Shown in pieces: positions 6,878 through 38,612 of a DNA stretch of 40,085 bases. The DNA is taken from positions 1 through 40,085 of the forward strand of contig JAAPAO010000319.1 of assembly GCA_013115145.1 (NCBI GenBank). Reading direction: 5' to 3'. Source of the stretch: Perkinsus chesapeaki. Lineage: Eukaryota > Perkinsozoa > Perkinsida > Perkinsidae. The first letter of the stretch is position 1. Every line of letters begins with the position of its first letter. Under the pieces are notes generated by a model. It had not been told where the DNA came from and did no database searches. It saw nothing but the letters and a program-made list of their open reading frames with translations. The position numbers were made by a program, and so were the translations under genes.

Positions 6878-9800
6878 ATGGCGGCGATCGGCGGCCTTAG
6901 TGTAGCGGCTTTCGCCTTTGCACGAAGTCGACGGCTATCTCGAGGTGAGGACATCTAGCGACAAGGAGAGGATAAGTTTGGTCCACGAGCTTCAAAAACA
7001 CAGCTAGGTGCTTGGTCTATATCGTCGATGATCTCATGCTGCACGCTTGGGCGCACGGAGCGCCCAATCGTGATTATATCGCCGCATTAGAGTTTTATAA
7101 TTGTTAGGCTATTATAAATAGATCCGCAAGTATATAAATATATATCCGTTCATCACCAAGCTCATAATAAGAACCCCACTCCTTTATAACTTATACACTG
7201 CATGCCGAATTCTTATCGATGACGGTTTTTCACGTCTTAAGATTCAAATATCAATCCTTATGTTCTCGGCACGTTGTCAGCACAGTTCCTATTAATGCGC
7301 ATACCTGATTTGATCGGCCTTTTCGCACGTATACAGGCCATGATTTTCTGACACCTCTAGCTTTTACTGTATAGTTATTTCGCAGGTAATCGATCGAAGA
7401 AAGAATCGGGTGGCTGGTGGGCCCTAGTTGGCAATACTCCTCTCATAAGAATAGACTCAATTTCGGAGTTACTCGGTGAGCAGCGGAGCGAAGCGTTTCA
7501 TGTTTCCACATTTTCTCATGTCAGGTTGTGAAGTTTACGCAAAGTGCGAGTTTGTGAATCCTGGCGGATCGGTAAAGGACCGAGTAGCCAAAATGATAGT
7601 ATCAGATGCCGAAGATAAGGGCCTGTTGAAGCCAGGGGGGACTATATATGAGGGCACCAGTGGCAGTACTGGCATTAGTCTCACGTAAGGGCCGCTGGAT
7701 AGACTATTTTCTGGACGCAGCCATTTTACGGACCCATTTGGTAGCGAAATGTATGAGGCTGATAGGCAACTATATGATGACGAACATTTTCTCGATACGA
7801 GTTTTTCAATGAGCAGCATAGAGCAACTTGAGGAGAAAATTGAATAGTCTGTTTTACTTGAATCGATCGACCGTATTGGAATGTGAACCTAACCGTTAAT
7901 CGACCTTCGGGTATGATGGAAAAATATACCTTGTTAGGAAATGGGAAGCTCGCAATTTGTCACTGGTGCATACGCTGGAGACCAAGGCAAAATTTCAGAG
8001 GAAATCTTACAAAATTCTGGCCTTTTTTCCGCATCTGCCAACACTTTTCGCAGCAATTTCGTGAGTAAATTTCAGGGCGGAATCGAGGAGGGGTGACAGA
8101 TATTCTAGTACGGTTTTCAGTGGTGCAGTTCTGAAGGCGAATTCTCTTGGTTTTAGGATGGCTGGCCTGGCCCGCGGGTACAAGACAGTTATCTTCATGC
8201 CAGACGATCAAGGTAAGGAGAAATCAGAGATGATAGAGACACTGGGAGGGGAGGTAAGCCAGGGAAGAAGTTCATACCGCTCTCCTGTTAAACTACCCAA
8301 GATCTCATCAAGTTGGTCTCGTGGACCACTGGGCTTCCCCGAGCTTAGCGCCTATATTCCATTCACGCTCTCTCCGTGTGCGCAGTTACACCCTTTGCCG
8401 ATATCTCAGGACTCGCTGATTGACTAAGAAAATGGTCGGTTCATTATCCTTCTTCATAGGTCCACCTATGTCGCCCTGTTTCCATAGTTGACCCTGAGCA
8501 TATGTGCAAGCTAGCAGAGCAAGCAGCCGAGAGGGACCCTGGCGGATTCTATGCTGGTGAGGCGAAATAACAGAGCGCGCGTGGCACGGCTCATTTAGAT
8601 CAATTCGAAAACGAGTCTAATTTCCGGGCGCATTTCCTCGGCACTGGCAAGGAGATCCTTGAGCAGACTAAGGGGAAAGTTGAGGGTAGGCCAATTCTTG
8701 CAATGAGGGAGATATTTTTTCTATTAGTGTTTGTGACCGCTGCTGGCACTGGCGGTACGTTGGCCGGTACGGCGGCCAGACTGAAGACAGAGCTTGGTGA
8801 AGACAACGTAACGGTGATCCTTGCCGATCCACCAGGTGAGGCTGCTGAGGCTAGAGACATGTGTAGCTCGTTTCGTGCAGGATCGGCCTTGGCTCGTCGC
8901 ATCAATACTGGTGTGTTATTTAATGAGAAGGATAAGGAAGGTTATCGAGTCAGACATCCATTCGATACTGTCACGGAAGGCATTGGTCTCGGACGACTCA
9001 CACATAACTTCACACTAGGTCAGATTAGTACTCGAGAACGCAAGGGCTGCATTAACGGACATTGTACGGTGGCAGCAGTCACTTCATGGCGTACTCATAC
9101 TGGGGCCTTTGAAAACTACGATTAAGGAATTTCGATTCGATTGCGGAACTGCTTTCACACGTAGAATGCGATCCTACAATCGCTTATGAAGCCCGGAGTT
9201 GATTTGATGAACATGACGGCTATCATATTGCAGCTTGTGTTCAGGCCTTCCCTTCATCGACTGTGCTGTGTCTATATCGGACGCAGAAGCTGTTCGAATG
9301 TCTCGATGGCTCTTGGCTAAAGATGGCCTTTTCGTGGGCAGCAGTGGCAGTCTTAATGTTGCTGCTGTTGTTAAAGCGTAAGCCATTTGCTTTAGTCAAT
9401 TGTTGTTGTCGATTTTAAACAAGGCTCTCTTAAGTGAGGAATTCCTGCACTGTAGTGGCCCGCTATCATCACGTATACAGTATCTAGTGTAGCCTAAGGG
9501 TAGTTGCTTTCGAAAGCAAGAGGGTGTGAGCGACTTGATACCCCAACGCCGAGAACAGCTAAGACAACTCGTTCCATGTTTTGAGAGGGGTTAATACCTG
9601 TCCTTTCAACCTTGATCCAAATGCCGGTGTGAAGGTATGCAGAATCAAATGTACTGGTAAACTGTTTTCCATAGTGTTTCCGCGAAATCGAATGAACATT
9701 GGCTTCTTTGAGAATCTTAGGTCGCCTGCTGTTAGATACAAAAAGGGTTACATCAAGCCAGGCCAGAGAGTTGTGACCATCATGTGCGACAGTGGAATGA

Positions 9801-9910
9801 GGCATCTATCCAAGTTCTGGAATAACTCCTATTTGGCATCCTTTGACGGTCTTGTCATTGCTGATGAGGAGAAGGGTCAGACTCCACTGGAGTTTGTTAA
9901 GTCCGACTAA
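6878..9910 (+). CDS. Cysteine synthase / PLP-dependent beta-replacement enzyme (membrane-anchored, YGR012W-like)
   Basis: Ten exons join in phase to 388 aa: 6878-6944, 7386-7475, 7525-7684, 8157-8253, 8460-8556, 8599-8685, 8728-8835, 8881-9018, 9245-9377, 9721-9910. The enzyme class makes cysteine from O-acetyl- or O-phosphoserine and sulfide using PLP. Visible motifs are VGNTPLIRI, the PLP lysine site NPGGSVKDR, the substrate loop EGTSGSTG, the IFMPDDQ strand, the phosphate loop [27 protein letters not shown] and the C-terminal [14 protein letters not shown]. The first ~20 residues are a short hydrophobic segment followed by arginines, like the membrane anchor of yeast YGR012W/MCY1; a mitochondrial site is inference. 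Length agrees with that subfamily (393 aa in yeast). Start chosen at the Kozak-like ATG. The final exon boundaries use some weak donors (GTAGGC, GTCAGA), but the phase is unbroken. Intron 2 carries the GCGGAGCGAAGC 12-mer. Confidence 0.95.
7483..7494 (+). repeat. GCGGAGCGAAGC 12-mer inside cysteine synthase intron 2
   Basis: The 12-mer lies in the 49-nt intron 7476-7524. The same word (on either strand) occurs in three other short introns in this window. It contains GCGAAGC, a sequence known to form a very stable DNA mini-hairpin. Confidence 0.85.
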
Positions 9911-10134
9911 ACGGTTTCTCTTACCAACTTTTCATTGAGTTTCTTCTCTCTCCTCAGGAAGCTTTTCACAATCTACTAGTTCTGTAGTTGCCTCATCCGT
10001 CATAGGCTAAGGGGAAACTAACTCGATGTCTTTAGCTTTCTTGGATCGAAGATTTACCCGCGTACTTGGCGCGCGCGGGCTCCCCGTTAGTTCATTTCAT
10101 TGAGCTTCCAGCATTTTTCGTCATTCCCTAACTA

Positions 10135-11730
10135 ATGTCAGCGCTTTCTCTTATAAGGCTGGTAGATACTCTAAACGCCAATCGCTTTATACTTGCCTCG
10201 AAGTCACCAAGAAGGCTGGGGCTGCTCAAGACCGTTACGGGCAACCGCCTCAATATCGAGGTGCTCGGGTCGACCTTCCCGGAGGACTTGGACAAAAGGT
10301 AAGCAAGGCTAAGCTGAGCTACTGATGATTTTCCCCTCAGCGCTCTGAAACCCGCCCAGTACGTGCTCGAGACTGCTACTGAGAAAAGCAAGGAGGTAAG
10401 AAAATCTGGAGGAGTCTCTCGCTAAACGATTTTCAACTTGAAAAAACTGAAATTTTTCATACTTCATGAAATTTTTCATGCAGTTATTGAATTTCCGCTA
10501 GTTTTCCCTTGTCATTTTTCTGTGTTCCATAATTGCTGTGTATGGGCTGCTTCCTTCCCGTCGAAATCCTTCCATGATTTCGCATGCAGGTAATCGGTCG
10601 CCTAGAGCCTCCAATGGACGGCCACTTCACTATGGTGCTTTCGGCTGACACTGTTGTGGTAAGCTAATTTGCCTGTATTAAACACCTTCGTTTCTTGCAG
10701 GTCGCGAATGGAAAGATTCTAGAGAAGCCAGAGGATCATGCTCACGCCATGGAGATGCTAAAGGCATTACGCGCACAAACGCACGAAGTTATCACCGGTA
10801 GGTTAGCCGTGCTTGTCAGCTCCAGATACGGTTGAATTTTCGCATCGTGAATACGCTACAATATGACCGGTGGATTACAGGTCCTGTGTGAGCGTCAATC
10901 ATATAAGGACCGTTCATATGGGAAGCACTGCGTTCTATATAAAAACTAGCACTTCCTATCATAGGAAGTCTGTTTTCAAAGCAGATGGCTTCCTGGATCA
11001 AACGGTTCAGAAATTTTGGCACCATGAGCTAACGCATTGTTTCATGCGCTCGTACTGCAGGAGGTCCGCAGACTAATATTCGTTGGTATGCCTGGAGAAA
11101 TCTTTGGTGTTGTTTTAGGTGTTTGCGTGAGTTGTAGGTGGTCTGATGGTCGAAGAGATCACCGTCGGTTCACTACCAGCACCAAAGGTGAGGGCATCTC
11201 GTTGAGTGATATGCTACCTCTGTAACATCCTCGAAACTTTCTCCACGAACAAGGCACTCCATGAGCGGAGGGCGCCATTATATGCAAAATCGAATGCCCG
11301 GAATTTTCCTGTTTGCCTGTTAAGCTGTATAAATATTGGCAACCTAGCTACGGTAGGAGAGTTCCTAATATAGTGGTGGTACGGGGAATGTGCTGAGGCG
11401 AAATTGACCCTACCTTTCGCGAACTGCCGCCAAGTCACGTGCACTTCGAAGCTCGCATATTGTTTTTGTTCAGTAACGTTCTCGGCCAACATTACTGATG
11501 AAGACCTTCAGGCGTACGTAGATACCGAAGAGCCGATGGGGAAGGCTGGCAGCTACGGCATCCAGGTGGGGAGGGCCGTCGATTAGCCATCGACAGCCCT
11601 GCTATTTGATTAGGGTATCGGAGGTCTATTGGCGTGCAAGGTTGAAGGGTGCTACTCCAACGTAGTTGGTCTGCCTGTACATGACACTGCCCAGGCCATT
11701 GCCGAGTTACTGTCTACAAGTTCCCAGTGA
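10135..11730 (+). CDS. Maf/YceF/YhdE-family nucleotide pyrophosphatase
   Basis: Seven exons give 220 aa: 10135-10298, 10341-10395, 10590-10658, 10701-10797, 11119-11187, 11474-11565, 11614-11730. The family hydrolyses non-canonical or modified nucleoside triphosphates to monophosphates and is thought to clean the nucleotide pool; in animals it is the N-terminal part of ASMTL. Motifs seen in order: FILASKSPRR near residue 20, SADTVVVANGKILEKP, the HEVITG strand, TDEDLQAYVDTEEPMGKAG, SYGIQGIGG and NVVGLPV. The size is normal for a stand-alone Maf protein, with no methyltransferase domain fused. The longest intron (10798-11118) contains a 19-nt odd-centred palindrome. The ATG was chosen because the conserved first strand follows about 15 residues later. 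It lies 224 bp after cysteine synthase, in the same direction. Confidence 0.94.
10951..10969. repeat. 19-nt perfect palindrome with one central base
   Basis: ACTTCCTAT-C-ATAGGAAGT has 9-bp perfect arms around a single C, inside the fourth intron of the Maf gene. Confidence 0.85.
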
Positions 11731-12086
11731 TCTTCTTGAAGTTTCTAGTGTAACTTCGTTGTCTTGCGCTACCTGATGAAATCTCAGTATTTCATCATTG
11801 ATAGTGTTTAGCGTGACTGATGAAATTCCATAGTTGTGCTATAGAGTTGGTTGCTCACCAGAATAAGCATGAATTAGCATTGGTATTGAATATCAATCGA
11901 AGCTCAGCTGTGCTCATTTCCTTAGCAGCTGGGACCCGAAGTCGCCGGCGGCCCATCTGCCATCCGACGCTCACCAATTTCGTGGCAGTGCCTCGGAAGG
12001 TGTTATCTTCATGTGACTTCCCACGGCTCGCATCTTTATATCATCCACCATCGTTTACATATGGGCTCTTGTCAGTTGACTTTTTA

Positions 12087-13108
12087 ATGCTGAAAAGAAC
12101 ACCTCGGAGCTCGGCCCCATCTCGGGGTTCAGGATCCTCTTCCAGCAAACGTGGTCGTGAGGAAGTTGATCCTGATTTAGTCGCTAAATTTGGGGAGGAG
12201 TTCGGCCCCCGAGACGGCCCGTATAGTATTGCATGCACGAACGAAATCGGGTGAGCTCATTCCACCACGGCGAGGTTAGTGTGCTGTCTCTGCTTCAGAT
12301 CGGCTTGGAAGGCAAATAGTCGAGGTCAGATTGTTCTGGGGAAGAAGGGCAGCCAATGGCACCTTTACATTCGTATGTCCATTAGCGCTGTCCTTTTGTC
12401 TACCATTTTTGCTTTTAACACGGTTTGCCTTTGATACTTGAGCGGCTCATCACTACGATAGCGGTTGGCTTCTCGACCTTCAAACCGTAATAGTACTTAG
12501 TCCAGATTGGGATACTAGGCTCAAGTGGTGCTGGGCGTTCACCAGCACATTCCAGATGCCTCAACGTATGTTACTCTATTAGTCGTGCTTCTTGAGATAC
12601 TCGCATAGGTCGGGAGGTCTACTGAAAATAAATAATATCGAGTCCTCTACGAATTGAACTACCTCTAAGATACTGCCTTTCAGATGAACTGGACACTTCA
12701 GCAGCGGTCGCCAGTCCCTCTCGATCACCCGGTGACACTATGTGCGTTGTAATGCTGGAGCTGGCTGATCGTCCCGGTAGTCTCTGCTCACCGCACTGGC
12801 AGGATCCCCCTCCCTCAGGTTCATTTGTCACCTGTGATCCCTCAGAGGGCACCGTATCATTGACGGATGACGAAAGGCTGTTAGCTTCTGCTTCCTCGAA
12901 GTTCTGGCTGAGAGAGCGAGTGTGGTCGGATGAATGCCAAGATACCTGTACGATCGTCCACCGTTGCGGATCGCCCAAGTCACTTCAGACGTCATCAGCC
13001 CCGTCGGGTATCCAAAAGTCTTTCTTCGACATAGCAACTGGAAGATACGCTGTGATGCTGCTGGCGTCGGCGCAGAATTTGAAGGCGACGCCACATTCCG
13101 ATGTGTAG
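12087..13108 (+). CDS. Hypothetical protein, 3' end unresolved
   Basis: Two exons are well supported by phase: 12087-12250 (Ser/Arg-rich start, then KRGREEVDPDLVAKFG and a DGPYSIAC segment) and 12299-12372 (SRGQIVLGKKGSQWHLYI). The first intron has a clear GTGAGC donor and a TTCAG acceptor. Further exons probably lie in 12515-13108, where one plus-strand frame stays open for about 140 codons to a stop at 13108. I could not choose between alternative joins, so the C-terminus is not known. No family is recognised. A highly basic, Ser-rich N-terminus could suit a nuclear protein, but that is a guess. Confidence 0.4.
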
Positions 13109-13471
13109 CTGGAAAACACTACGCCCATCTATCAGCGCTTTTGCTCTTGTGTAGGTCCTGGTAGCTGCGATAGAGGAGCCTAGTGAGATTGAGTAGGATC
13201 ACTCTTCATCGCTCTCTCGTCCCGAGTTGCTCGTTCTGTTATAATGAATGCGAAAGTGAATCATTTGTTTTGTACAGAAGAATACCGAGTTACTGTAGTT
13301 ATTGTCCAAACTAGTTGAGCGCTACAGTGAATCCCATCTAAAACCTTCGCCTCGATTCCCTACCAAATCTGTCAACGCTGCTGTCTGTGCAACTTGAGAG
13401 AAACCCCCGGCCACTTTTGTCCCAAGCCCAGTTTCTGGCGACACAATTTTTTGTCTCTTCCTCTCTATCAG

Positions 13472-14289
13472 CCTTCTCACGAAAAAGCTGGCCAAGCTGG
13501 CATCCCGTCGTAATTCCTATAAGAAGAAGCTTGTTGAATTGAAGAAGAAGTAAGGCCACAGTCTGCGCGTTAACAGTATAACAGTTGTTATACAGTCCTC
13601 CAAACTAACTTAGAATATCACGTTTTTGTGACCAATCTCTGCCAGATTTGCGACTCTGTGCCCCAAACTCAGTGAGTCTCGTTCTTATATGGCCTTCAAT
13701 ATACCACCCAAGTTTCAGCATCTTACTGGTTATTGAGAACTGAGAGATGTATGTGCCCGTTTATATTCCAACGCCAAAAGTGACTCAGGCGTATCCATTC
13801 TATGCAACTGCCGAAAATGTTTAATGCTGTAATTGTCACTGTATAGTTCATCGGGGCTGGAATGTAACTAGTGTCGAGAGACTCTACAGTCGTTGTCCTA
13901 GTTGAACCGGTTGTTGCGATAAGTAACGTATCATAAGCTCCATTGTGTTACTAGCAGAGGCAGGTATTGGTATTGAAGTCTCGCTCGGAATTTGGACATA
14001 GTAGGGATAGTCTAGCTAGGTCATTTTCGGCGTAGGACTATAAACTCACACACACGCAGAAGTTGAAAAGTCAATGTGAAATGAAAAGGTTTGAGTTCGT
14101 ACCAAGCTGTCGTTCTCAGATTTGAGGAGGCCAAGGAGCTTGTACAGTCGCTCAAAAAGGATATACAATCCACCGAAAAGTACAGCCACATGCCCGTGAA
14201 AGATGATTGCCATTTGTAGGGAGCTTGAGGAGGCGAAGAAGCGAAAGCTCGACGAGAGTACTTCCACTACGGCCTCTACCGTACTGTGA
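13472..14289 (+). CDS. Small Lys/Glu-rich coiled-coil protein (5' end unresolved)
   Basis: Three exons join in phase: 13472-13549, 14120-14179 and 14220-14289 (stop TGA). Introns are 570 nt and 40 nt with GTAAGG and GTACAG donors. The product reads as one continuous charged helix, from KLASRRNSYKKKLVELKKK through FEEAKELVQSLKKDIQSTEK to ELEEAKKRK, ending in a Ser/Thr-rich tail. The unbroken heptad-like pattern across both junctions supports the model. The start codon must lie upstream in an exon I could not define. No family is recognised; a structural or complex-forming helix is the most that can be said. Confidence 0.5.
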
Positions 14290-14546
14290 CGGCCGAGCCC
14301 ACTTGCTGTTTCTAACCAAGTCGCACAGCGGCTTTGCAGAATTCGCGATTGTTGTTGTATTAGTTGTGATGCTCGCCATTTGTTCTTGCCATCTGTGTTG
14401 TCTGACACGGTGAGCGTGTTTGCTTTCGGATGAGCTATCTGCTCATGTCATTGAATGCCCACAGTCTCTTGCCTTTTATGTCTGGGTTGGGTTGCTCGCC
14501 CGATGAGAGAAATGCGTTACCGTCTAGTATCTTGTTATTGAATTAG

Positions 14547-16124
14547 ATGTCATCATCAACCTTTTTGCAGTGGGTATCTCAGCACACAGCAACGGCACTG
14601 AGAAGCCGCGTTAACAAGGCTACTGGTCCGATAGTAGGCGTAGTTGGAAATCAAGCTGCAGACGCCGACAGCATAATATCCGCTGCGGTGAGTATCACTA
14701 TTGCATTCTCTACCTTAGATGTATTTCAGGCTTTGGCGTACATCCGAGATATTGGTGGCAATCGCCGCTACCAGCCCTTCGTACAGTGCGACGAAGAGGA
14801 TCTCTCTCTCAGGCCTGAGGTACGAACTGCACATCCGCGGCGCACTGGACGGTTGTCTCAGGTTGGCCTGCTGTGGACACGTTTCACGAAGTCACCTAAA
14901 GTCGCGCTGCCTTCCACCAAAGCCGGCATACCGTCTGCAGTTGATAGTTGGGTTATTGTCGACCATAACGAGCTCACTTTGAAAGGCTCCAGTGCTCCTG
15001 TTATAAGCATAGTTGACCATCATGTCGATTCTGGAAAGTACTCCTACACTGCACATGACTATCGGTTTACTCGAGCTCGTCTTTAGGTATCCGGAACTCC
15101 GGGGCGAGGCCCGGGTCATAGAGCCAGTCGGCAGCTGTTGCACGCTTGTGGCACGGGAATATCTCGACAGCTCCAAGCCCGAGATGGTTGATGTCCCTTT
15201 ATGCGGCATTCTTCTTGGTGTCATTCTACTGGACACTGTTAACATGAGCACTGAGGCCGCTAAGGTCAGTTACCAGCTCCGAGTCGCGGTTAAGGCACCC
15301 GTGGCTTCAGGCAACAGCGGTTGACTGGGATGTTGTCGAGCGACTCTCCGCAGTGGTCGGCTTCGACGAGCACCAGAGGACGAGCCTCTTTAGAGAGCTT
15401 CAGCAGGCCAAGACCGATCCCAAAATGTGGGAAAGGATGTCACCCCGACAACTTGTAGACTATGATTATAAGTAGGCCACTCTTCGGTTAGTTATTATGC
15501 GAGCGGCACTCAGTGGTTCATCCAGTACAAGCCTTCTTCGAGCGCTATGTTCTAAGCTGGTTTGTTCGGCACGCAGCCCTTGATACAGTTTCGTATCGTT
15601 CCCTTGCCGTTTAAAGTTTATTTTATATAGCTCTTGCCCACCTTGATTGCTGTAGATATTTTGACTCTGGCATCGGCGTAGGCATGAGCAGCTTATTGGT
15701 GCCTCTACGAGATGTAGCACGTGAATGTGTTGATAACATTCGTAGCCGAGGAAGTGATGCTCCAAGGCTCTGGGTAATGCGAAAAATAGTAAGCGGAGCG
15801 AAGCAAGATCGTACGGCAGGTTTTGATGTCCTGCTTCACAAACCCAGCGGGCCACATTTGCAGAGAGCTTCTCGTATGTGTGAAGGAGCCCGAAAAGGAT
15901 GCCGCACTGTTGTCTTCCATTGTGAGCTTCCTCGAGGGAAAGGAGATTCTTCAGCTGAAGAGAATGGATACAGTAAGACACATATTCGCCGCCTCTTCGG
16001 AGAGCCGTCTTCTTGTCAGGAGATTCCCGGAGCGGTGGCGTACCACCAGGGAAATGTTAAAGCCAGCCGAAAGAAGGTGGCTCCAGTTCTCTGCGAGTTC
16101 CTCAATTCCCAATGCAGATGTTGA
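14547..16124 (+). CDS. Prune / exopolyphosphatase (DHH superfamily)
   Basis: Eight exons give 378 aa in phase: 14547-14687, 14730-14819, 14862-15037, 15087-15264, 15311-15471, 15656-15788, 15820-15972, 16020-16124. DHH-superfamily Prune and PPX1 enzymes hydrolyse short polyphosphates or cyclic nucleotides using metal ions. Metal-site motifs are present: VVGNQAADADS (motif I), WVIVDHNEL, SIVDHHVDSG and EPVGSC, then GVILLDTVNM. The C-terminal DHHA2 part is recognisable from FTNPAGHICRELLV and YHQGNVKASRKKVAPVL, which resembles the C-terminal region of animal PRUNE. The second intron (14820-14861, 42 nt, a multiple of three) could be retained without a frameshift. The sixth intron (15789-15819) is only 31 nt and carries the GCGGAGCGAAGC word. 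Start ATG lies 40 codons before motif I. Confidence 0.93.
15793..15804 (+). repeat. GCGGAGCGAAGC 12-mer inside the 31-nt Prune intron
   Basis: The word occupies more than a third of the 31-nt intron 15789-15819 and starts four bases after its GT. It shares 14 bases (GCGGAGCGAAGCAA) with the copy at 37230. Confidence 0.85.
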
Positions 16125-16237
16125 ACGAACACACCCATCCATTGTGTTTAGAGTGATTTCTTACATTATCGGTGTTTGTTATTTGTCAATCTGGGTCACA
16201 TGCGGCCGCAAGTTAGACTGAACACTACGCTCGTCAC

Positions 16238-16258
16238 TATCATAGTGACACTATGATA
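16238..16258. repeat. 21-nt perfect palindrome with one central base
   Basis: TATCATAGTG-A-CACTATGATA has 10-bp perfect arms. The right arm is partly repeated directly at 16281-16291 (GTGACACTATG). It lies about 200 bp upstream of the 1011-codon gene, between it and Prune, so a regulatory role is possible but unproven. Confidence 0.85.
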
Positions 16259-16461
16259 CCCTTGTATCTGTTGAACCCTTGTGACACTATGTTGGGCTTC
16301 CAATCATCTAATGAAAATGCGCTTGTGTGACTTTACTTTTGTGAATGCCATAGTTCATCCATAAAAAGGTCTTCTCTCCCCGATATGGTTTAATACGATC
16401 TTGCATAAGATTCACGTTTACGTTATATTGATAGGGCTCCTTCAGTTGTCGTGTTATCACC

Positions 16462-19497: not shown

Positions 19498-22400
19498 TAT
19501 TTACCAGTGTATCCGTTATTGTGTTAGTCCAGTTGCTGCCAGTATCGGCCTGACTGTCCGACATCATCGAAATATTTACTCGCGGCCTCCGCGATCGCTA
19601 CGAAGTGGTGCGCATTGGCCCTTAGCGGTTGGAATCTCGAGCTTGCTACGATCACTGTCAACTACGTTCCCACACAATTGCAATATAGAATAGCAGCAGC
19701 CGGTTTATGATTTAGGCGTTGCCACGTTACTAGAAAATCGAAGCAGAGATATTCCCTTCTGAATGAGGGAATACTATGGTGATTTATTTAGCCCATCATA
19801 CCACAAGCTTTCTGAACTCGAGTCCCAAAGAATCATGCCTGAGCAGCTTACTCAGTTTGAAACATTGAGTACTGTGAACTAAACATTGGTTCCTTTGATG
19901 ACAAGGTTTCGAGAAATACCGGAGAAGAGACGAGATACCAGCTCCTGGTAACCAGGGCGATACTCAAATCGACGGGTACGATTAAGTGTCTGTCGCATGT
20001 AACATCCAACAGGGTCTCATACCGTCGCTTTCATGTAGCTAAACTTTAGTGACTAAGGTAGTATTATTCGTGGGATTCGACCGACTGACCCACTCATAAT
20101 TGATAATAATTTGTAAAACATGGAGCGATGACCAATTTGTATTGGAGACATTCTCCTTATCAACCCACTTTGGTTCTTCTCAGTACTCAGTACGGAGACT
20201 ACAGCAGCATCAGTGAGCGTCGTGGCCTGGCACAGTATATTCGGGCACTGAAGCGAAAACCGGCTCGTGGAGGCAGCTTTCTGTCATCTACACACATTCC
20301 TCCTATCTTGTTGCATACAAACTCTTTCAAATATGGCCAACGGTACACTCCTTGCTCGCCGACATTCACTGTTGGAAACCCAGCGAAAGGGGGGATGATT
20401 GCGGACGTATCTGGACAGTCACCATGTTCTCCACAACGAGGTTCTCCTTCGATGCTCTGAATTTCATGTATTGCATGGCACGCAATGAACCACGGCGCGG
20501 CGCCACTGGGCTCCAGCCACCAAACGCTGAGGAGGGCCTCGGATACCCTTTTTATAGAACGGTTCAAAGATACTCCCGCTTTCATAACTGGAAGGCTGGT
20601 GGTGTTTCTGGCCGCCTCACTTGTTCCTTCGTTACTGCTCCGATACCTTCATGTGTTGAGGACATCGGTATCCGTGGTTTCGCAACGAATTCGGGTACAC
20701 CTTGACTATAGACAGTGGCGCCTATGGCTCCGAGTGCAGGGCGGAGCCATTCTGGCGGTCGGCCAGAGCTGGCATTCCGAGTGTAGCCATAGCGGGATCA
20801 AGTCACTCGTTTTCTGGTACAAACACAACAGTCAAGGTCTTAGACCAAGAGGGATCAACCATCAGAAAATGCCGGCTTGGTACTATAAAGAGATACCGTC
20901 GGGCACGGGACAATCACATCTACACGAATGAACTTATGAATAGCCTCAAATGGTAGTATTGCTTGAGCGGAATACCATCCCGCGGGAATTCCTTGATTCG
21001 AGGCACATGTTCCTACCGGGACGACGCGGTGGGTAAGTGCTTCCCAGCACCGACCAGTGTCAAGGAGAGCACCGAAATCCCAGTCAAGAAAAGTATACGT
21101 AGCTATTAGCAAAAAAAATCGGACCACCGTGTCACAAGGATGCATACAGGGCAGAAAAGCAGAGCAATTCTGTGTCTCAAGCTCAGTTTGGAGCGCGAAG
21201 TGCGAGGCAGCCAAAGCATTTCTCGCTGCATGAGTAACTGAAATATAGTCTAGCGAACGGTGCCAAGTTTCCTGTGGTGCTCTGGCAGTTACCACTTCAA
21301 TCGCGATTGTCGTCTGAGCATGGCAATAGGTGTGAATCACACCGTGTGATGGTATTGAGATGCAGCAATGGAGCCGGTTCTGTGTGTGTGTCACACGTGT
21401 GTGAGTTTCAAGTCCAACGCTGGATTTGCCTTAATGAGAATATCGATTCTATGTGCATGTTGTAGTATAAGTCATCATTTGCTCCTCGCCATGGAGCTTC
21501 GTAAATTGCGATTCTTAGCTTCGCGGAGCTGTGCCCGCTCCGTCACATCTCTTATTTATCTCTTCCCTCGAACATGTCGAGTTCACACCCCCACAGGTCC
21601 CAGTGCCTTATCGTGGCTTGGGGGCCTATACTGGGATCGAGCTGCCACCCTTCTCTGAGCGAAGCTCTTACATCCACTTAACGAGTGCGATAGAGTGTGG
21701 CTTATGGCTCACGTACTCCCCTTGAGGAGTTGCTCCCTCGTAGCCCTTTCTTATGTCTTTAGCGTTCTTCTTCTGTCTTTAGCATTCTCTAAGTTGCGGC
21801 GACACTGTTACCAACAACTCCGACGTGGTCGACGACAGCCCTGAGGACGCATGCTACGTTATTCTCTTCTTTCCGTGGACATCTCCCAGGGGTTCGCCTT
21901 GCTGTAAACGTGGAGGGCTGGTCAGTGATCACTGGTCATCTTGGTTGAGCTCTACCTCTCATTGCTTTCCCCGGCTGAGATCAAGCGGGCCTGCACATCG
22001 CGGACTGACAGACCGCCGGTGGTCCGGATCAGCTCTATTTCCTCCCCTAAGAACAGCACTCGCAGTGTGCCTACTGTGACTCATCAGTAAATCGTTCTCA
22101 TCATTTCTCTAGGTATCGCAAGTCTGGCGGCTACCTCTAAGGCAGGCGGAGCAAGGGTCACTTTCTGTTGTACGAGTTAGTGGCATTCGTAAGGGTATGG
22201 GCGATTGGCCTATGGCCCGCAATGCCCGGCATAACCTTTGAGTTGAGTTCACAATCAACAATACATCCCTATGGTCTCCAGGAGTCTTCGACAACATATC
22301 TCTGAGCTCCAACTCAAACTGAATCGCCAGAGGGCTTCAGAATGTATCAGGTTGACACTACCAACCGCCCGATTCTTACCGAATCAGCCTGCAGCAAGGC

Positions 22401-27624: not shown

Positions 27625-27803
27625 CTACAGCAGAAGACGAGCATTTTATACTTGGATTTATCATGTCTGGTTACCTTATTGATGGGGGTCGCGCAGCCAC
27701 TGGTAAATAGGCTCCATGCTGTTGTAGACGGCGGCAGGCGCCGCGCCCGCTGAGGAATGACTAGGTGTACATGCGGTCCTTCAAGAAGCAGGTCGCCCTT
27801 CAT

Positions 27804-30117: not shown

Positions 30118-30844
30118 TATATTACTTCAGGCTGTGTTATGCCAAAATGTACGGTACTAAACAATCGCAAGTTGTAGCCAAAGTTAGCCGAAGTTCCAAT
30201 CTCGTGCCGACGAGACGAGACGAGAAAAGGGCTCTGGTGTATTCAGAGGCGCCCGAGACACGCACCGAGAGTGGCTACATGCCGCGTGCTGGCCTCTGGA
30301 GAGGCTCGAACAGGTAAGATAACCTTGAGATATGCTTGGTATAAACGCATGTGGAAAACAATTTGTTTCATGGCACAAAATTGGCTAACAACATTCGACA
30401 TTAAACATTTCTCCCTGAAACTGTTGTGGTATATGATACTGGCTGAACAGAGCCCCTAAGGGATAAAAGACTCGGATTTTGTTGAGTGACGAAGGTCTAT
30501 CTCACTTGTCGAAGCGCTGTGCACGCAATCGAGAGATTGCTGAGGTGCGAAGTTAAGAAACGTGTACAAACGAAGAGCAGGCACGCTCAAAACTTAAGGT
30601 GTACAGAGGACATTGAGCTTGCTATCCATCTTTTCAAGTCTTCCCGAGTAATTACTCGTTTGCCGAAGATCGACGAGCTTCGCGGAGTCGTTGCGCCAAA
30701 AACCGCTGAGTATTGATTCTCACTGAACTCATCGCTTCTCAGTTTGAATTGTCCTAATACCCCAGGAACTGGTCTTTCCAATGTCGCATACGTATTCAGA
30801 ATACGATATTGTTCATTCAGGCTCCATTCTCCTATTTCATGATC
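30118..30844. other. Spacer between the two tandem aspartic protease genes
   Basis: No gene is supported. It contains the GACGAGACGAGACGAG motif (30209-30224) upstream of the protease start and an AGCTTCGCGGAG word (30676-30687) also seen at 21517-21528. Confidence 0.5.
30209..30224. promoter_or_regulatory. GACGA repeat upstream of protease gene, candidate regulatory motif
   Basis: Three GACGA units lie 92 bp upstream of the ATG at 30117. The core GAGACGAGAC recurs 63 bp upstream of the paralogue (32104-32113), and its inverse GTCTCGTCTCGTC lies at 32289-32301. Shared position in front of both paralogues suggests a promoter element or simply conserved flanking sequence. Confidence 0.35.
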
Positions 30845-32041
30845 CTATGCGTCCGGAAAGGTCCGGACCTTCGATGGCTGTGATTTTCTTACTCTTCTCC
30901 TCAACCGCCTAAAAGTGGGTTTTGCTTTTGTCAAAGCGATACCGATCTGACGTTTCTCGGCTTGGTAATGCAAATAATATTGACGAAGCAGACCAAGCCC
31001 GACTACGAACATTCCGGGCAACTCTACGATTAGAATGGAGCATCTCCCACCCCCTGGCCATTCTAAGACGTACAGATCTTTCAGTATCGTCACGTTGACA
31101 GCATCGTCTGATTCCCCTCTCAAGGCAAGGTTGATGGCTGGGAGATAGTCTCGATCACTGCAGCTTTGTAATTCATGATACCCAGAAGGTCTCGATAACA
31201 TATACCGACCAGCAGCATTGAGGCTCGCATTGATGGCTTCGAGTATCGGGCCGGTTACTTCCCGTGGGGCGTAGAGGGAGGTGGCACCGCTATCTATCTC
31301 AGCTGAGTAGGAAGTATAGGGCAAGTTAATATGCTGGCCCGCCACTTCGACCCTCCTCAGATCAACGCTCCATGCATTCGTCCCAACCGTTAGTGGGACG
31401 TGTGCCAATGGTTCTTGGTACCTGGTGGTATCTTCTCCACCAATAATCAGTTCACCCTCATCCATATTTTTGGGTTCAAAGTAAATCGAAAACTTTTTTC
31501 CAGTGATAATGCCTTTATCTACAAGTTGGTCTAATATGGGAACGAAATCGCTATCGTTATCTTCGTCGATATCTTCTGATCTTAGTCTGAGTCCCAGTGA
31601 CGCATGAGGCGGTAGCCCGTTGGTAGAATAGTCTTTTACTATACCGAAGTCAACGTCCGAAACTCTAACTCCACCTAGCTCCAGCTCACCCTTGTGGTGG
31701 ACAATAGACGTGCTGCTATCATCTCCGAAGACAACCTCCGTGGATTCGCGATCGCAAACGGCAAGCTCGCATTGATAGCAGCCAAAAACCGATCCACCAC
31801 AGGGCTTTCCATCGCATCTCGACTGGTTCGATAGGAGAAAAGTCGTGTCTGTCCCAGTGTCCATCATGAGGTTCAATGTCTGGTTGTCGGCTCGAATCGG
31901 CACAATCATTGAGACAGTGAAGATGTTCTCCCATGTAATAAACGTTTGCGAGATTGGCAGCCTCAAGAGTGTGCCATCGATACTCCCTAGGCATAGCAAC
32001 CATAAAGCAGAAAGTTGTTTCTGTCCAGCTGATGGCTTCAT
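30845..32041 (-). CDS. Pepsin-like aspartic protease (family A1), tandem paralogue, intron-free
   Basis: An open frame of 398 aa from the ATG at 32041; the frame stays open 33 codons further up to 32140, but the chosen start aligns with the paralogue and puts the hydrophobic signal segment (LSALWLLCLGSIDG) at the N-terminus. Active-site motifs are MMDTGTDTTFLL (Asp near residue 61) and EIDSGATSLYAP. It shares much of its sequence with the 28966-30117 gene in the same order, including GLPPHASLGL, NMDEGELIIGG and ELQSCSDR. Predicted to be a secreted or vacuolar endopeptidase. Compared with its neighbour it has a short acidic insertion (SEDIDEDNDSD). Confidence 0.93.
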   Translation of the reverse strand: MKPSAGQKQLSALWLLCLGSIDGTLLRLPISQTFITWENIFTVSMIVPIRADNQTLNLMMDTGTDTTFLLSNQSRCDGKPCGGSVFGCYQCELAVCDRESTEVVFGDDSSTSIVHHKGELELGGVRVSDVDFGIVKDYSTNGLPPHASLGLRLRSEDIDEDNDSDFVPILDQLVDKGIITGKKFSIYFEPKNMDEGELIIGGEDTTRYQEPLAHVPLTVGTNAWSVDLRRVEVAGQHINLPYTSYSAEIDSGATSLYAPREVTGPILEAINASLNAAGRYMLSRPSGYHELQSCSDRDYLPAINLALRGESDDAVNVTILKDLYVLEWPGGGRCSILIVELPGMFVVGLGLLRQYYLHYQAEKRQIGIALTKAKPTFRRLRRRVRKSQPSKVRTFPDA

Positions 32042-32103
32042 ACTTGAGCTTCGTGTTGCGCGTGAGTACAAAACACAAATGAACGGCTTTACCTTCCCCC
32101 GAT

Positions 32104-32113
32104 GAGACGAGAC
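32104..32113. promoter_or_regulatory. GAGACGAGAC motif upstream of protease paralogue
   Basis: The ten bases match the core of the repeat at 30209-30224 and lie 63 bp upstream of the ATG at 32041. An inverted longer copy (GTCTCGTCTCGTC) is at 32289-32301. Confidence 0.3.
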
Positions 32114-32656
32114 ATAACACGGCCAGTGACCGTCGGCCACTTGTGCCCTAGGAAAAGACCTTTTCCAGAAGTTTCGCCACCATCCTATTGGGCATGATCA
32201 AAGAAGGACGAGGGCTTGAGCTATGTTCAGGATGGATATTGAACCGAGTCTTTTTTTCGGAGAGTTTCAGGGAAATATCGCAAATCGTGTCTCGTCTCGT
32301 CGGTGACGTGATGGGGACGACCTTTCGCCTCCTTCTCTGCTGGGCTAGTCCCTATACGAACTCCGGATAGCGCGGCCGGGATCTTCGTCATTGAGAAGGT
32401 ATCATATTTATTCGAAAACCAGCGGTTCTTTCCAGTACGTCGCGCCTGGGTGAGTCTTGATACACGCTAGGAGCATGTGAATTAAAAGATCTTCCATTCA
32501 CGTTACCTCTGCGACTTTTCGCGCCATCCAGTCCTTCCGGAGCACAGATAGCACACTTCTTACTCTTACGTACAGATAGCCTATACGGAGCAGCCCGTCT
32601 AAAGACGGGCTCAAGTGAAAGGAAATGTCATCTACAACTTCCCTTTTTTGTAGCTC

Positions 32657-33866
32657 ATGCTCTCATATTCCTATGTCCACTTGTTCCTGGCATTTTCGCC
32701 TATACAAAGCATCTATTATCGGAACTACCACAAAGCTGACGTGTTTTACGATACCACAATGCGCTTTCTGTTCACCTCGTTATGTGAGCAGGCAGTAGGG
32801 ATTCCCTGTCGTGTTGCGGTTGACCGAATCGGTGGGCGAGAGGTGAGCTGGGACACGCACGTCTGTCTACTTTCGGGCCTAAAAGGCTGAGTCAGCTACA
32901 ACATGCCTGCTATGAACATATATCCTGTCTTGCAGCGCGTCGTTGGTTGCCTTTGGATGAAGATCCCTCACGAGTTGGATGGGCCAGAGGAAGAGTTGGT
33001 CAGGGCGCATGTGTACGTAGCATCGCACTGCGGGTTGTTACACTCAACGACTCGTGAAGAGTCCAAGCGCTGACGTCCGATCCGCCCCATCTCGACAGTC
33101 GCGCTATACAACTGAGATCCTCTATCAGGTCAGTTCCGAAAAGGCATGGTGTATTTGGCTCTATACAATATGTAAGCTGTGGGCACCGATATTGTCAAGA
33201 TTAGCAATCTTCGAGGCGTGATTAAGACTTGCCGTTGGCTTCGTATGAACGAATGGCTTCAGGAGTATCGCTCGGTGCAGGACATAATACACTCCCATCT
33301 TCACTAACTGACACGTCGAATTATTATATCGCGCCCCGATCTCGATCGGAGTTAGTACTTCCAAGTTCGTACCTGCTCTTAGGTCGAGGTTGCAGGGCCT
33401 TTCAAGGAAAAAGGGATTGGAGCTGAGCTCGTAAAGTATGCTATCGACTATGTAAGAGTGTTAGCACGCTCAGCGCATATCAACAAGGTGTTTCGCTCGC
33501 TTCAAAACCAAGGTGCGATTTGCCGCTTTTCGAGGATTTAGAAACAACTAATATGGCGGGTTAATCAACGAGTACCCTGGTTATCATATCTAAGATGAAA
33601 GTTCTTTACAGTGCTATTCAACCAGTGTTCGTTTTAGGGCAAGGAGATGTCAGATGTTCTCGCGATCACTTTGCGCACGAACCCAACAGGGTTTATGGCT
33701 CAGAAGTACAAGAAAATGGGATTTATCCAGCTTACTGGTGAGCTTTGCTTGCTCTGGCTTGAACCAGCGACTTGAACCACGAGAGGGAACTCTGGACCAC
33801 TTTGCTTTTTTAGAGGATCGAAGAAACCCACTCGCTCTCTTCGCTTTGTACTATGATCGAAGTTGA
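32657..33866 (+). CDS. GNAT-like N-acetyltransferase (tentative)
   Basis: Six exons join in phase to about 185 aa: 32657-32842, 32936-33010, 33200-33274, 33383-33451, 33638-33737, 33814-33866. GNAT enzymes move an acetyl group from acetyl-CoA to an amine. Supporting signs: RERVVGCLWMKI fits the strand that precedes motif A; VEVAGPFKEKGIGAELVKYA fits motif A, where the acetyl-CoA pyrophosphate loop normally reads R/Q-x-x-G-x-G/A (here KEKGIG); ALRTNP-like LAITLRTNPTGFMAQKYKKM with GF fits motif B. The exact substrate cannot be told. The 33200-33274 exon is the weakest call, and an upstream start is possible because the first ~30 residues look unlike a normal N-terminus. Confidence 0.62.
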
Positions 33867-34234
33867 ATGAACACATGTACTTCATCACACCTTGCTTGTT
33901 CGCTGAGTGTGCAGGTCAATGTGGATCCTTTCAGCCCATTGCTTCCCCATTGCTGTCATTGACCACTTTCAGACTTGAGTTCAAAAGGACCACAACATAT
34001 TCGAAGTGTCTTTGGCCGAAGTCTTGCTAGATTCCTTCACAGTCTCTTTCTCGTGTATAAGGAAATGCTACGACCTTAATCGCACTTTACGAGTTTACTA
34101 ACGCAATGCATGCCATTCGTTATTGTGCAACTTCATTTCAAAAAAACTCAAATCGTGGCGGCGCCGTGCAATGATAAAAATACAAACTTATCAAATATGA
34201 TCATTCACCATCCTGTCGGACATGCAGTTCACAA

Positions 34235-34889
34235 TTACCCTAGTGTGTTTTCGCTGCTGTACGTGACATACCTAGCCACACAGACTTCGGAAGGAACGCA
34301 GACGAGTGCGACGATTACAGGAAACCGTCTTCGTCTTTGAACTTTTCGTAAAGTTCGTTCATCGTGTCGCCTAAACAACAATGTTAAGCCGTTGATGAGA
34401 ACACTCGTATGCCACCTGTTTTAGGGACCACGTTCTTCCCGACGAAAATGTATATTGTCTCATTCGAAGAGTGCTTCACAGTCGATCCTAAACGAGATGA
34501 ATCCTAGCGGGTGCGCAATGGTCCGCCTTGCCTTCGCCGCTCTCGTCAGGCTGCGCGTCCGCGTCGGGCCTGAAAATGCTTTTATGCACAATGTATTTGA
34601 ATTCGCCGCAAAGCATGTTGCCCGGCACTAAGAACTTTTGCTTCTCGATATCAGGCAACTCGGTTCTCTCATGTCTGAATGCATTCAATGATGATGCTCT
34701 GCGACAACACTTCTCAGCAGCCCACTTCTCAGCGATCACAGGGATCCTCTCGGGGTACTTCTGCAGGATTTTCTTAGACTCACTCCTGCGCTTCTCTGAG
34801 ACAGCTAACTGCAGTAAGCATCAAGGTTTCGGTTGCCCACCTAAAGAGTGTTTGTTGCGGTACGAACTAGCTCGTGGCGATGACGACAT
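34235..34889 (-). CDS. ATG8: Autophagy ubiquitin-like protein ATG8
   Basis: Six exons give 140 aa: 34889-34841, 34795-34726, 34674-34532, 34487-34416, 34370-34319, 34271-34235. ATG8 is joined to phosphatidylethanolamine on autophagic or, in apicomplexans, apicoplast membranes. Family signature is clear: SLEKRRSESKKILQKYPERI, PVIAEKHERTELPDIEKQKF, LVPGNMLCGEFKYIVHKSI, ETIYIFVGKN, MNELYEKFKDEDGFLYVTYS and the end SSENTLG. The glycine is the last residue before TAA, so no ATG4 cleavage is needed to expose it, as in apicomplexan ATG8. About 20 extra acidic residues (PDADAQPDESGEG) are inserted after KYIVHKSI. The third intron (34488-34531) begins GC (GCAAGG) rather than GT; it is the only join that keeps phase. 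Other introns are 45-51 nt. Confidence 0.93.
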
Positions 34890-36575
34890 GCCAAAACTAT
34901 CACAACTGTTTTTCTAGTTCGTTATGTGATTGAACAACTCAACAGGTAGGAGTGGTTTATGCGCAAAATTCCTCCTCCCAATCCTCTATGCCTATCCGGG
35001 AGCTGAAGCCGCTACGTGTTGCGTCATCGTCACCAGTCTGTGGCTCTACCACTCCTCCGAAGATAGCAACCCACAACAGAGACCACACGGCCTCGATAAG
35101 TTGGTGAATGCTGTATAAAAGAATCATACGAATATGGTAGTGGGAGCAGCAGCAGTTCGCAGCAATGAGATAAGGGCCCAAGGAAAATCAACATAGAACG
35201 GATGATGACAATCATCACGATGATGAGATCAACAACTTGAGATTACTAAGTAACCACCATGGAGCTCTCACCACGTTAAGAGGTTTCCAGTCGAGGAAAA
35301 GAGTTGGCGTAGTTGGCATCAGCAATGACCCCAACCGCCTTATGAGCCGCTGAGCTTCACGCTCGTAACGACTCGGGCGATGTGGAGGCGGAGCCAGCCA
35401 AAGGATACACCAAAGCTTAGGTAAGACCGGATATGTTATTCTGGGCAAGAATACTTGGGGCGAACCTCTTGGATCTTGCCATGATACAGTATAAGGGAAA
35501 ATACAAGGATAGACGAAATGATGATGACGAAGATTTTCATGATGATGCTAACAACATATTTACTAAGGCAGCAGTAGTAGCAATAGTAGCAGCGGAGGAG
35601 GACTAGTGGACACCGACGATAGCAATTAGTGGTTAAATGAGCACCTTCGGAAGCAGCACCTCACAATCGCTCTGACGAATAGATGAGGGTGGTCCGCTGG
35701 TGCTCAGGGGAATAACGTAGATTTTGGGGTAGTAGATTACGTCCGCACACATGCACACCTTTTCTTGATATTAGCAATAATAATAAATGATAACATCGCC
35801 TCCGTATGGCATAATGGAGGATAATTATAGGCTGTTATTAGGGCCAATTATCGACTACTGGAGGTCATCAGCATTTCAAAGGTAGGCAGCAACCACCGAC
35901 AGGGCGGTGGTGGTGGCGGTAATAACAGCAGCAACAACAGCAATGATTATTACTACGCAGCGATAACTAACTCTTCTTCTTCAACTACTACTAGTAAGAT
36001 GTGACAACTTTGGTGATGAGAAGGCAGCAACAATACATTCGATAAGACGGGCATCGACAACGAGTAGTAGCAGTGGGGGAGGATGGGCAACAAATAGATA
36101 TCAATACAGGTGATGATGCGACAGCTGAGTTCGATACGAACCACGAGCCGCCGCATCGTTCAATAGACATCATCATCATGATAATAATAATAGCCATTTC
36201 GGACTGTACTAATCAGATAATAAGAAGCTCGCCCTCGAGAGCACCTCGTCATTGTCGATAACACCGTATACATTAAACTTAGAAGTACTGACAACCGGTG
36301 TGCTTCATCACTTGTCGAGCACAGTATCTGAAGGAATTCAGTTTAGGGGGCTCTTTCCGGCAATGCTTCTGCTGTTGCTGCAATCCTACATTCCTTCTTC
36401 GACACCGTCCATAATCATCTGTCTGGTGATTGAATGCCAAGCGATAGATCGGGAGCCTGACATCAAGCCAAATTGGAAAATATCAGGCGATTCGTTCACG
36501 AGCGTGGAAGGCATTAACCTCACGGGCGAGATTCTTAAACGTGTAAACAACCCTTGTAGCCTATTATCACGTTGT
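34890..36575. other. Intergenic stretch rich in GAT, AAT and CAG-type trinucleotides
   Basis: No gene is supported. From about 35130 to 36200 the sequence is full of short, impure trinucleotide runs on both strands (for example GATGATGA, GGTGGTGGTGGCGG and CAGCAGCAACAACAGC near 35900, and ATCATCATGATAATAATAATA near 36170). This looks like decayed microsatellite sequence. Confidence 0.55.
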
Positions 36576-38612
36576 TTATATACAACGAACCCAAGAGTAT
36601 AAAGATAATTTCCCCAGCTTCGTGCGATAACCATCGGAAATAAAAGTCTCACCGTCATCAGGCAGAACCTCGCTGGAATCGTCGTCACTGAGGCTCGAGA
36701 GCGAACTCTCGACTGGGGATGGAACACTACGTGGGGTGAGATCGCGGGCAAGCAACCTGAACCGCCGCCGCCATCACTTCCGCATCACCAATCCTCCGAA
36801 CTCTTACCTGGCGTATATAGCGGCGATGAAGCCTCCTACAAAGCCATCACCGGCGCCGATGTCGTCGGAGATGGCAAGAGGGTCCAAATCTCTCACAGTG
36901 TGTGCGAATGCGTCGCATGTATCCGTTAAGTTGCTGCAGCAAATGACCGGGTCGGGACCTGCCGAGCAATGTCTATACGGCAAACCGTATCTGTTGACCT
37001 TGGGTCATGATAGCCCATGCGCCTGGCTTCATGAATGCTGACACGGCCTCTGCGATCTCGCGCGGGCTCATTTTAGATAGACCCGCGATACCTGCGTGAG
37101 AGTGCAGTTCCGCCGAGGTGAATCGAAGGCCTCACCGAGATGCTCGGCAAACGCGGTAAACTCCACCTCGTTCCCGAATATAACGTCACAAGCGTTTTTG
37201 GCCATATACGTCTGAAAGAGAAAAGTTAGGCGGAGCGAAGCAACTCGTTGACTTACGAAATCGTCGTTCTGGCAGGCCCAAGCAGCGCTGAGACCCGCGA
37301 AGAGCTTTGTGTAGCCAGATTTAATCTGTGGATGATTGGGGATGTATCTGAGAGGGCCGGATGGAGACGCGATCTGACGGAAATACGGTATTATTTACTC
37401 TCTGCACGCGTATCCATCCCCGCAAGCGTAAAACGCAGTCGTATAGAGTATTCTGCAGTCAGTAGGAATGCCTGTCAACAACACTGCTCCTCATTTCCAT
37501 CAACTCTGACCACCTACCTCTATCGGGACCAGCTCGGAACTCCGGCGCTACTCCCAAATCCGTAATCATCGTTCCTGAAAACAGTGCCATCCAAAAACAA
37601 CAGCGGAGCGAAGCTCTTTATTACGCTTCTTTTCCTTAAGAAGAGCGCAACATTTGCCAGTACGTCCACCGGGGAACACCTGAGCGCAGTATCCTCCCCG
37701 CCACGAGCACAGTACTGCCGCCGGTGAATCCTACCTCGAAGTCCGTCTCGAGCCCGGCCTCGACGCAGGCCTCGCGCAGTACATTAGCATATTCATCATC
37801 GCCGACACTGCCGACGATCCGAACCGACGTGTTGGCGAAGCTGACGTCCTGCAAAATAAGTAGCGCTCGCCCGGATGATCGATTATTATGCCACGAAACT
37901 TACGTTGTACTCTGGATCGGTCTCGTGGCGGTCAAACCACCACTTGACGCCTCTCAAGGAGTTCATCGCCTGCCCGCCCGCAATGCGCTGAAAGGATGAC
38001 GCTGGTGGGGACGGCGGCGGTGACAGCTGGGAGGCTTACATGAACTGTTAGCTCCCCGTCCCCCAACATTCGCGCAAACAACTTCTTATCTTCGTCGCTT
38101 CCTGAGATAAAATAAAGTGATAAACTATTGTGTTAGGAGTTATAATATAGACTATGAAGGTGAGTATTAATAGTGAAAACAAAGAGGCCTTGCAAAGGGA
38201 AAGATTTAATATGTTTATCAAGCTGATAAATAACAATACCAATTCCCTATTATATTTACCCAGTGGATAAGCTACCAGGGTTATACTATTTTATATTCCT
38301 AATATGAGTACAGAAGAGAGGAAGGAGTGTGATGAAATTGGCAGTAAGCAGTAGTAGGATAATAGTAATACCATCCGTGAGCCTCTGTGTGTTGACTTTC
38401 AAGCCAAAGCCACTAGCGTCATCAACAGTCGCAACCAAGTCGAGAATAGGGTGGTCGTATGATACAACGCTGAATGTTTCAGCTCCACCCAAGGAACAGG
38501 GACACGTCGTCGAGGAGGACATGACTGGAGTAATAGTCCTTGATAATGATGACGCCTCATCATCATCAGCGGCAGCAGCAGCAGCGACGGAGTAGTCGGC
38601 GGCAGCAGCCAT
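36576..38612 (-). CDS. Adenosine kinase-like PfkB carbohydrate kinase
   Basis: Eleven exons give 402 aa in phase: 38612-38372, 38101-38040, 37987-37904, 37848-37735, 37679-37625, 37574-37514, 37347-37257, 37211-37136, 37091-36999, 36958-36808, 36756-36576. Adenosine kinase phosphorylates adenosine to AMP in purine salvage, which matters for parasites unable to make purines. Motifs: YDHPILDLVATVDD near the N-terminus, IAGGQAMNSLRGVKWW, SVRIVGSVGDDEYANVLREA, GGRTGKCCALL, TMITDLGVAPEF, DVIFGNEVEF, WAIMTQG and the anion-hole/catalytic motif DDIGAGDGFVGGF with the base Asp in GAGD. The N-terminus carries polyalanine and Asp runs. The last exon encodes an acidic Ser-rich tail (SSLSSLSDDDSSEV) instead of the usual AGxYAA helix. 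Exon 6's end is tentative. Two introns (37575-37624 and 37212-37256) carry the GCGGAGCGAAGC word in reverse. Confidence 0.9.
37230..37241 (+). repeat. GCGGAGCGAAGC 12-mer inside an adenosine kinase intron
   Basis: Lies in the 45-nt intron 37212-37256 of a minus-strand gene, so the transcript carries the complement GCTTCGCTCCGC. Confidence 0.85.
37603..37614 (+). repeat. GCGGAGCGAAGC 12-mer inside a second adenosine kinase intron
   Basis: Lies in the 50-nt intron 37575-37624, again reversed relative to the transcript. It shares CAGCGGAGCGAAGC (14 bases) with the cysteine synthase intron copy. Confidence 0.85.

Follow-up and report, generated by a model that had tools for sequence, protein, structure and literature searches.

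The stretch analysed here (the window) comprises 40,085 nucleotides of contig JAAPAO010000319.1 of Perkinsus chesapeaki, a protist parasite of clams, and carries genes for cysteine synthase, Prune and adenosine kinase, whose short introns contain an exact 12-base word, GCGGAGCGAAGC. A first-pass annotation had listed four such copies and had read them as introner-like elements or, alternatively, as a short repeat with a preference for introns. All four were located in the sequence, each within a GT-AG intron of 31-50 nt, two of them in sense and two in antisense orientation relative to the host gene (Table 1). Their number exceeded chance, with a mean of 0.01 copies and a count of four reached in 0 of 100 shuffles. 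The borders of three of the four introns were supported from outside, by an NCBI model or by a P. olseni protein.

The word was then searched in the P. chesapeaki genome (35.4 Mb, 884 contigs), where it occurred exactly 781 times (406 forward and 375 reverse) against 2 occurrences of the reversed word. With up to one mismatch, 1432 places were found against 121 for the reversed-word control, and the longer word GCGAAGCGATTCATG was present 46 times against 0 for its control. The sequence context was analyzed in 104 distinct exact copies, namely the first 100 places in contig order plus the four window copies. A purine directly preceded the 12-mer in 103 of them, and 48 carried a unit of 32 bases, RGCGGAGCGAAGC-GWTTCATGTTTnnCATTTTT. 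Arms were scored with a leave-one-out profile built from copies chosen by their first four arm bases, with a cut-off that only 0.1% of 5000 random pieces exceed (the 99.9th percentile). This scoring separated two classes of copy: the 48 above the cut-off (long form), and the others (short form), the majority of which fell in the random range and had only the 12-mer and its preceding purine. When the search was made from the arm instead (GWTTCATGTTT, with 11 core positions left free), 63 places were found genome-wide against 6 for the reversed control; at these places the core was exact in 51, differed by one change in 4 and was unrelated or heavily changed in 8. The 12-mer core was far more constant than the arms. 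Folded with RNA parameters, which are not those of the d(GCGAAGC) DNA hairpin, the unit consensus reached only −1.6 kcal/mol and the other strand −1.3 kcal/mol. Two long units stood in tandem in locus L126 (contig C100), with about 10-11 bases from the first T-run to the next 12-mer, and also in locus L118 (contig C323), where they were 34 bases apart from start to start.

In order to place the copies relative to genes, we used a self-trained gene model in a stricter and a looser version on two sets, 10-kb pieces including the window (30 copies) and short pieces (74 copies); an earlier version, which placed 70 of the 104 copies between genes, 20 in introns and 14 in exons, was replaced as it missed known genes. 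The stricter version recovered two and the looser three of the five known introns of cysteine synthase, and the exon and spacer labels are rough because the model is weak. According to the stricter version, short introns held 5 of 30 copies against 6.4% of background bases in the 10-kb pieces (p = 0.04) and 26 of 74 against 9.6% in the short pieces (p = 2e-9); in the looser version they held 11 of 30 copies where they made up 13.9% of bases (p = 0.0015) and 32 of 74 where they made up 17% (p = 1e-7). Exons were depleted: in the stricter version they made up about 40% of bases but held 7 of 30 and 16 of 74 copies, and in the looser one about 53% of bases but 8 of 30 and 20 of 74 copies. Sequence called intergenic by the stricter version held 16 of 30 copies in the 10-kb pieces (45% of bases) and 22 of 74 in the short pieces (36% of bases). 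The first-pass annotation had proposed a count of the word by context across the genome and had seen no exact copy in an exon or spacer; the enrichment in short introns and the depletion in exons were borne out by the count, and the absence from exons and spacers holds for the window but not for the genome, where the spread is not limited to introns.

A strong donor-acceptor pair, 36-56 nt apart and spanning the copy, was present at 30 of 103 copies compared to 148 of 3000 random positions. The donor motif GTRRG lay within 17 nt before the 12-mer in 25 sense and 13 antisense cases among the 104, and in 0-10 cases for seven scrambled words. Genome-wide, GTAAG within 12 nt was found 38 times in sense and 28 times in antisense, with 0 for the reversed controls and about 11 each expected from base composition. 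A combined splice-plus-coding score set copies and random positions only about twofold apart.

Introns bearing the 12-mer were supported in unrelated genes, namely those for cysteine synthase, adenosine kinase (two introns), a PRP4-like kinase and aconitase, and together the intron-borne copies cover the long and the short form in both orientations (Table 1). Ten spliced peptides were compared with Pfam: in 7 the family alignment crossed the junction, and L051, L098 and Prune matched no Pfam family at E 0.01. From the proteins and reading frames we infer that these introns are spliced. NCBI proteins of P. chesapeaki were obtained for 4 of the 16 query segments of a chimeric protein query (L011, L012, L021 and L022), and a second chimeric query yielded proteins of P. 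olseni, with none labelled P. chesapeaki in the best 120 of 1297 matches. In L012, the copy lies in an NCBI intron of 52 nt with the unusual donor GTTGGT (as read from the protein) and the acceptor sequence CATTTTCAG. The predicted single-exon NCBI model in L022 reads across the 12-mer, and the model in L021 stops about 100 nt ahead of it. In L011, the start of the predicted NCBI model P0124 (position 4993) falls inside an antisense copy of the unit; since its start codon lies there, the first residues of P0124 may be wrong.

Table 1. Introns bearing the 12-mer and copies of the repeat, with window coordinates or, for copies elsewhere in the genome, the locus
Feature	Position or locus	Strand	Form of the copy	Support
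Cysteine synthase intron 2, 49 nt (donor GTGAG, 12-mer, arm, acceptor CAG)	7476..7524	+	long sense	P. chesapeaki NCBI protein FOL47_005766 agrees with the spliced model across this junction
12-mer GCGGAGCGAAGC	7483..7494	+		exact match
32-base long unit (12-mer plus arm GTTTCATGTTTCCACATTTT)	7483..7514	+		arm profile
Prune intron, 31 nt	15789..15819	+	short sense	open reading frame either side only
12-mer GCGGAGCGAAGC	15793..15804	+		exact match
Adenosine kinase intron, 45 nt	37212..37256	-	short antisense	P. olseni orthologue P0125 unbroken at NDDF/TYMAK
12-mer GCGGAGCGAAGC, antisense to the adenosine kinase gene	37230..37241	+		exact match
Adenosine kinase intron, 50 nt	37575..37624	-	short antisense	P. 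olseni orthologue P0125 unbroken at KKR/TMITD
12-mer GCGGAGCGAAGC, antisense to the adenosine kinase gene	37603..37614	+		exact match
Kinase intron	L010		long antisense	Pfam across junction
Ankyrin intron	L016		long sense	Pfam across junction, alignment starting only 5 residues before the junction
Proteasome intron	L019		long sense	Pfam across junction, just over its cut-off
AAA intron	L036		long sense	Pfam across junction
RNA polymerase Rpb2 domain intron	L060		short sense	Pfam across junction
Syf1 repeat intron	L064		long antisense	Pfam across junction
Aconitase intron	L092		short antisense	Pfam across junction; P. olseni protein
PRP4-like kinase intron	L045		short antisense	P. olseni protein
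Copy within NCBI intron	L012		short antisense	NCBI model

Intron length bears on whether the unit created its intron or entered an existing one. Sixteen introns with the long sense form, picked by eye, measured 39-55 nt (median 46.5), the unit making up 32 of about 46 nt, and only 7-23 nt would be left without it. Sixteen short-form introns, likewise picked by eye, had a median of 47 nt, of which the 12-mer contributes 12 nt only and about 35 nt would remain. The median of 141 other predicted short introns, a set restricted to 25-90 nt, was 45 nt. Since the median of the long form is unchanged despite the 32 bases, creation of the intron is favoured for this form over entry into an existing one; the lengths of the short form decide nothing between the two.

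The 12-mer is also tied to a larger repeat. Seven close pairs of 12-mers in the same direction were found genome-wide, and five of them share GCGGAGCGAAGC-GATCGCTACA, followed by eleven differing bases and then GCGGAGCGAAGC. Four of these five junctions start contigs (C1, C511, C802 and C805) with the same 71-73 bases, and the fifth (C667), with a nearly identical repeat end, lies 78 bases from the contig end. The repeat end carries its own 12-mer 10 bases inside and sits exactly 11 bases before the target 12-mer. In C805 the target 12-mer belongs to another copy of the same repeat end, an arrangement as expected from nested insertion. A sixth contig start (C387, locus L099), whose boundary was inferred from its last six bases, GCTACA, has 73 bases of another sequence, and here too the distance to the following 12-mer is 11 bases; this end and the common end were not clearly alike (alignment score 3.0, shuffles up to 6.0). 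We read these junctions as those of a larger repeat that has a 12-mer near one end and probably inserts at a fixed spacing from a target 12-mer. At the 11-base point, no tandem-duplication signal of the kind left by excision was seen in 126 copies.

Taken together, these results point, with a probability that we put at roughly 45%, to the 12-mer and its preceding purine being the core of a tiny dispersed repeat of mobile type that most likely serves a larger mobile element as end module and landing mark. We infer that the larger repeat is a transposon which left the small copies as relics of its ends, and that these copies created introns rather than entering existing ones. The 12-mer would be the site that the element recognises, shared by its end and its targets, and the 32-base units would be short relics of that end, the step from element to relic being presumed. 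A relic in a gene, with its T-run, would require only a nearby GT and AG to act as an intron: sense copies would follow the GT donor directly and bring the T-run close before YAG, in antisense long copies such as those of L010 and L064 the AG would be supplied just outside the 12-mer, and copies landing in coding exons would mostly be lost. Intron gain is a long-standing question, and here a 32-base unit with a constant core forms most of many tiny introns and occurs in both directions, and a larger repeat may insert next to that core. The 12-mer might even be a self-spreading landing mark, where a transposon end with the 12-mer inserts beside existing 12-mers and leaves 32-base relics that are themselves new marks, and introns in either direction when they fall in genes. 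We consider this unlikely; if true, a single sequence would underlie both intron gain and transposon targeting.

Several observations weigh against the end module and landing mark. Copies occur outside introns as well, and about half of them have the 12-mer alone; decay of the 32-base unit could account for this only if the 12-mer were constrained. In 50 long copies, duplications of 4-6 nt that end at the 12-mer were no more frequent than in shuffles, and no empty site was found within the same genome, as 12 flank pairs (of 48 made) matched only themselves. The contig starts may be assembly breaks within a repeat, and the larger repeat is known here from one end and from one side of each junction. 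The comparison of what remains of the long sense introns with the shortest of the other introns (5th percentile 27 nt) is not independent, because the gene model cannot call introns below about 22-26 nt. The splice sites flank the conserved unit and are not part of it, which speaks against a classical introner. Matches of 3 nt were slightly raised in the duplication analysis (10 vs 6.2, 15 of 300 shuffles as high), as were 4-nt words anywhere in both flanks (22 vs 16.9, 30 of 300 shuffles as high). The introner reading of the first-pass annotation is upheld in part, by copy number, intron enrichment and the introns in conserved genes, but not by a clear target-site duplication or an empty site, nor by the copies outside introns; its alternative, a short repeat preferring introns, is supported at least equally well.

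The copies outside introns would suit an ordinary dispersed repeat tolerated in non-coding DNA, which entered existing introns or around which introns grew, and which a transposon uses as a harmless multicopy target. The usual length of the host introns in both forms, and the 35 nt or so that short-form introns retain without the 12-mer, fit this explanation too. However, entry of 32 bases should lengthen an intron, whereas the long sense introns are of normal length with little left beside the unit, and we regard the explanation as somewhat doubtful. Quite improbable, in our judgement, is a functional motif, that is, a protein-binding DNA site under selection with weaker T-rich arms, evolving where it stands or spreading by drive, for which introns are merely permitted sites. 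Such a site would account for a core much more constant than the arms, for its presence in both orientations for the many copies that have the 12-mer alone and for the lack of insertion marks at the copies analysed, but the 32-base unit common to 48 of the 104 copies and the repeat ends 11 bases away resemble mobile DNA. The introns also lie in inner protein domains and not just near gene starts, and a regulatory motif confined to gene starts was rejected on this ground. Bacterial DNA-uptake sequences offer an analogy only: they likewise have a very constant short core, both orientations and T-rich arms in a subset, whereas the 12-mer here is enriched in introns.

An origin from RNA tails, by which the long unit would be a DNA copy of the 3' terminus of an RNA made by polymerase III, perhaps U6 small nuclear RNA, with the terminator T-run as pyrimidine tract and T-arm pieces of tRNA as a sister case, appears very improbable. 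The unit ends in a T-run and, we assume, resembles the 3' tail of animal U6. Pieces with the tRNA B box were common (21 in 234 kb), and among 20 of them TTTT followed 12-35 nt downstream in 13 (control 7.7%), TTT..YAG in 8 (9%) and GTRRG preceded in 6 (11.6%), with an A box in only 2 (1.7%). Nevertheless, the assembly yielded no U6 gene, either by pattern (0 matches) or with the Rfam U6 model (best 23.2 bits vs a cut-off of 44), and no Rfam match fell at the unit in 20 loci scanned; since no U6 was found by either route, multicopy small-RNA genes may be missing from the assembly. The 5' edge of the unit is sharp, whereas copied RNA tails should start variably, and the short form has no tail. 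Three weak U6-like places, when read, did not look like U6. The B-box (T-arm) words, GGTTCGAWYC, were located in L012, L016, L026, L027, L028, L044, L064, L078, L089, L090 and others, and it is possible that these pieces form a second family of short pieces in introns. ARAGORN detected 2 tRNA genes in 24 sources scanned, compared to the 21 B-box words in 234 kb.

Other classes of mobile sequence were considered as well. Reverse splicing of introns is excluded as the sole route by the existence of antisense copies. A Helitron with a CTRR-like end could suit only those copies, about 57 of 104, in which an A stands at −1. Miniature inverted-repeat transposable elements (MITEs) are small, present in many copies and devoid of coding capacity, as also described in part of PMC7789003. 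The unit shares these three properties but is far shorter, and lacks inverted repeats at its ends and a clear target-site duplication. A transposon with terminal inverted repeats, or a MITE, was rejected, as no inverted partner was seen by eye and no clear duplication was present; the copy profile had no second 12-mer-like end.

For introner families, median lengths of 30-654 nt and, in some of them, splice sites taken from flanking sequence are described in parts of PMC9860276 and of PMC7789003, the latter on introners of Amoebophrya. As in the families described there, one repeated sequence lies in introns of many unrelated genes; the introns here (39-67 nt) are inside the reported range, and their splice sites flank the unit as in some families. 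Unlike those introners, the unit shows neither a clear target-site duplication nor inverted repeats from end to end, and it has a constant 12-base core in both orientations with copies also outside introns. Dada elements are DNA transposons with target specificity, characterised by a DDE transposase and a target-site duplication of 6-7 bp. They are reported in PMC3706591 to carry a subterminal repeat shared with U6, and five Dada families occur in tRNA genes of P. marinus. The fixed insertion distance from a multicopy target is common to both cases, as one end here lies exactly 11 bases away at five junctions and a different end does so at a sixth, whose boundary is inferred, and the repeat end here carries the target 12-mer itself, 10 bases inside. 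In contrast to Dada, the target here is a short dispersed repeat instead of an RNA gene, and the element is known from one end alone. A search of open-access full text for Perkinsus and introner gave one paper, which concerns Amoebophrya, and a search with the motif letters gave nothing on this repeat among the matches listed.

Some further features of the window were recorded. Two side observations of the first-pass annotation are weaker: the variant of the 12-mer that it had noted at 21656 differs by two mismatches (6 matches at up to two mismatches vs 3.01 expected, 5 of 100 shuffles as high), and the words that it had called rearranged versions occur in the sequence at 21517 and 30676. The word TTCTGACACCTCTAG lies at 7346-7360, in intron 1 of cysteine synthase, and was also seen in the fetched loci L017, L020, L021 and L104. 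Within 7685-8156, the NCBI model of cysteine synthase has about 12 residues before MAGL that the P. olseni protein does not have, and the exon border at 8157 in our spliced model matches the P. olseni protein. A tRNA-Gly gene with anticodon ccc lies at 2581-2651.

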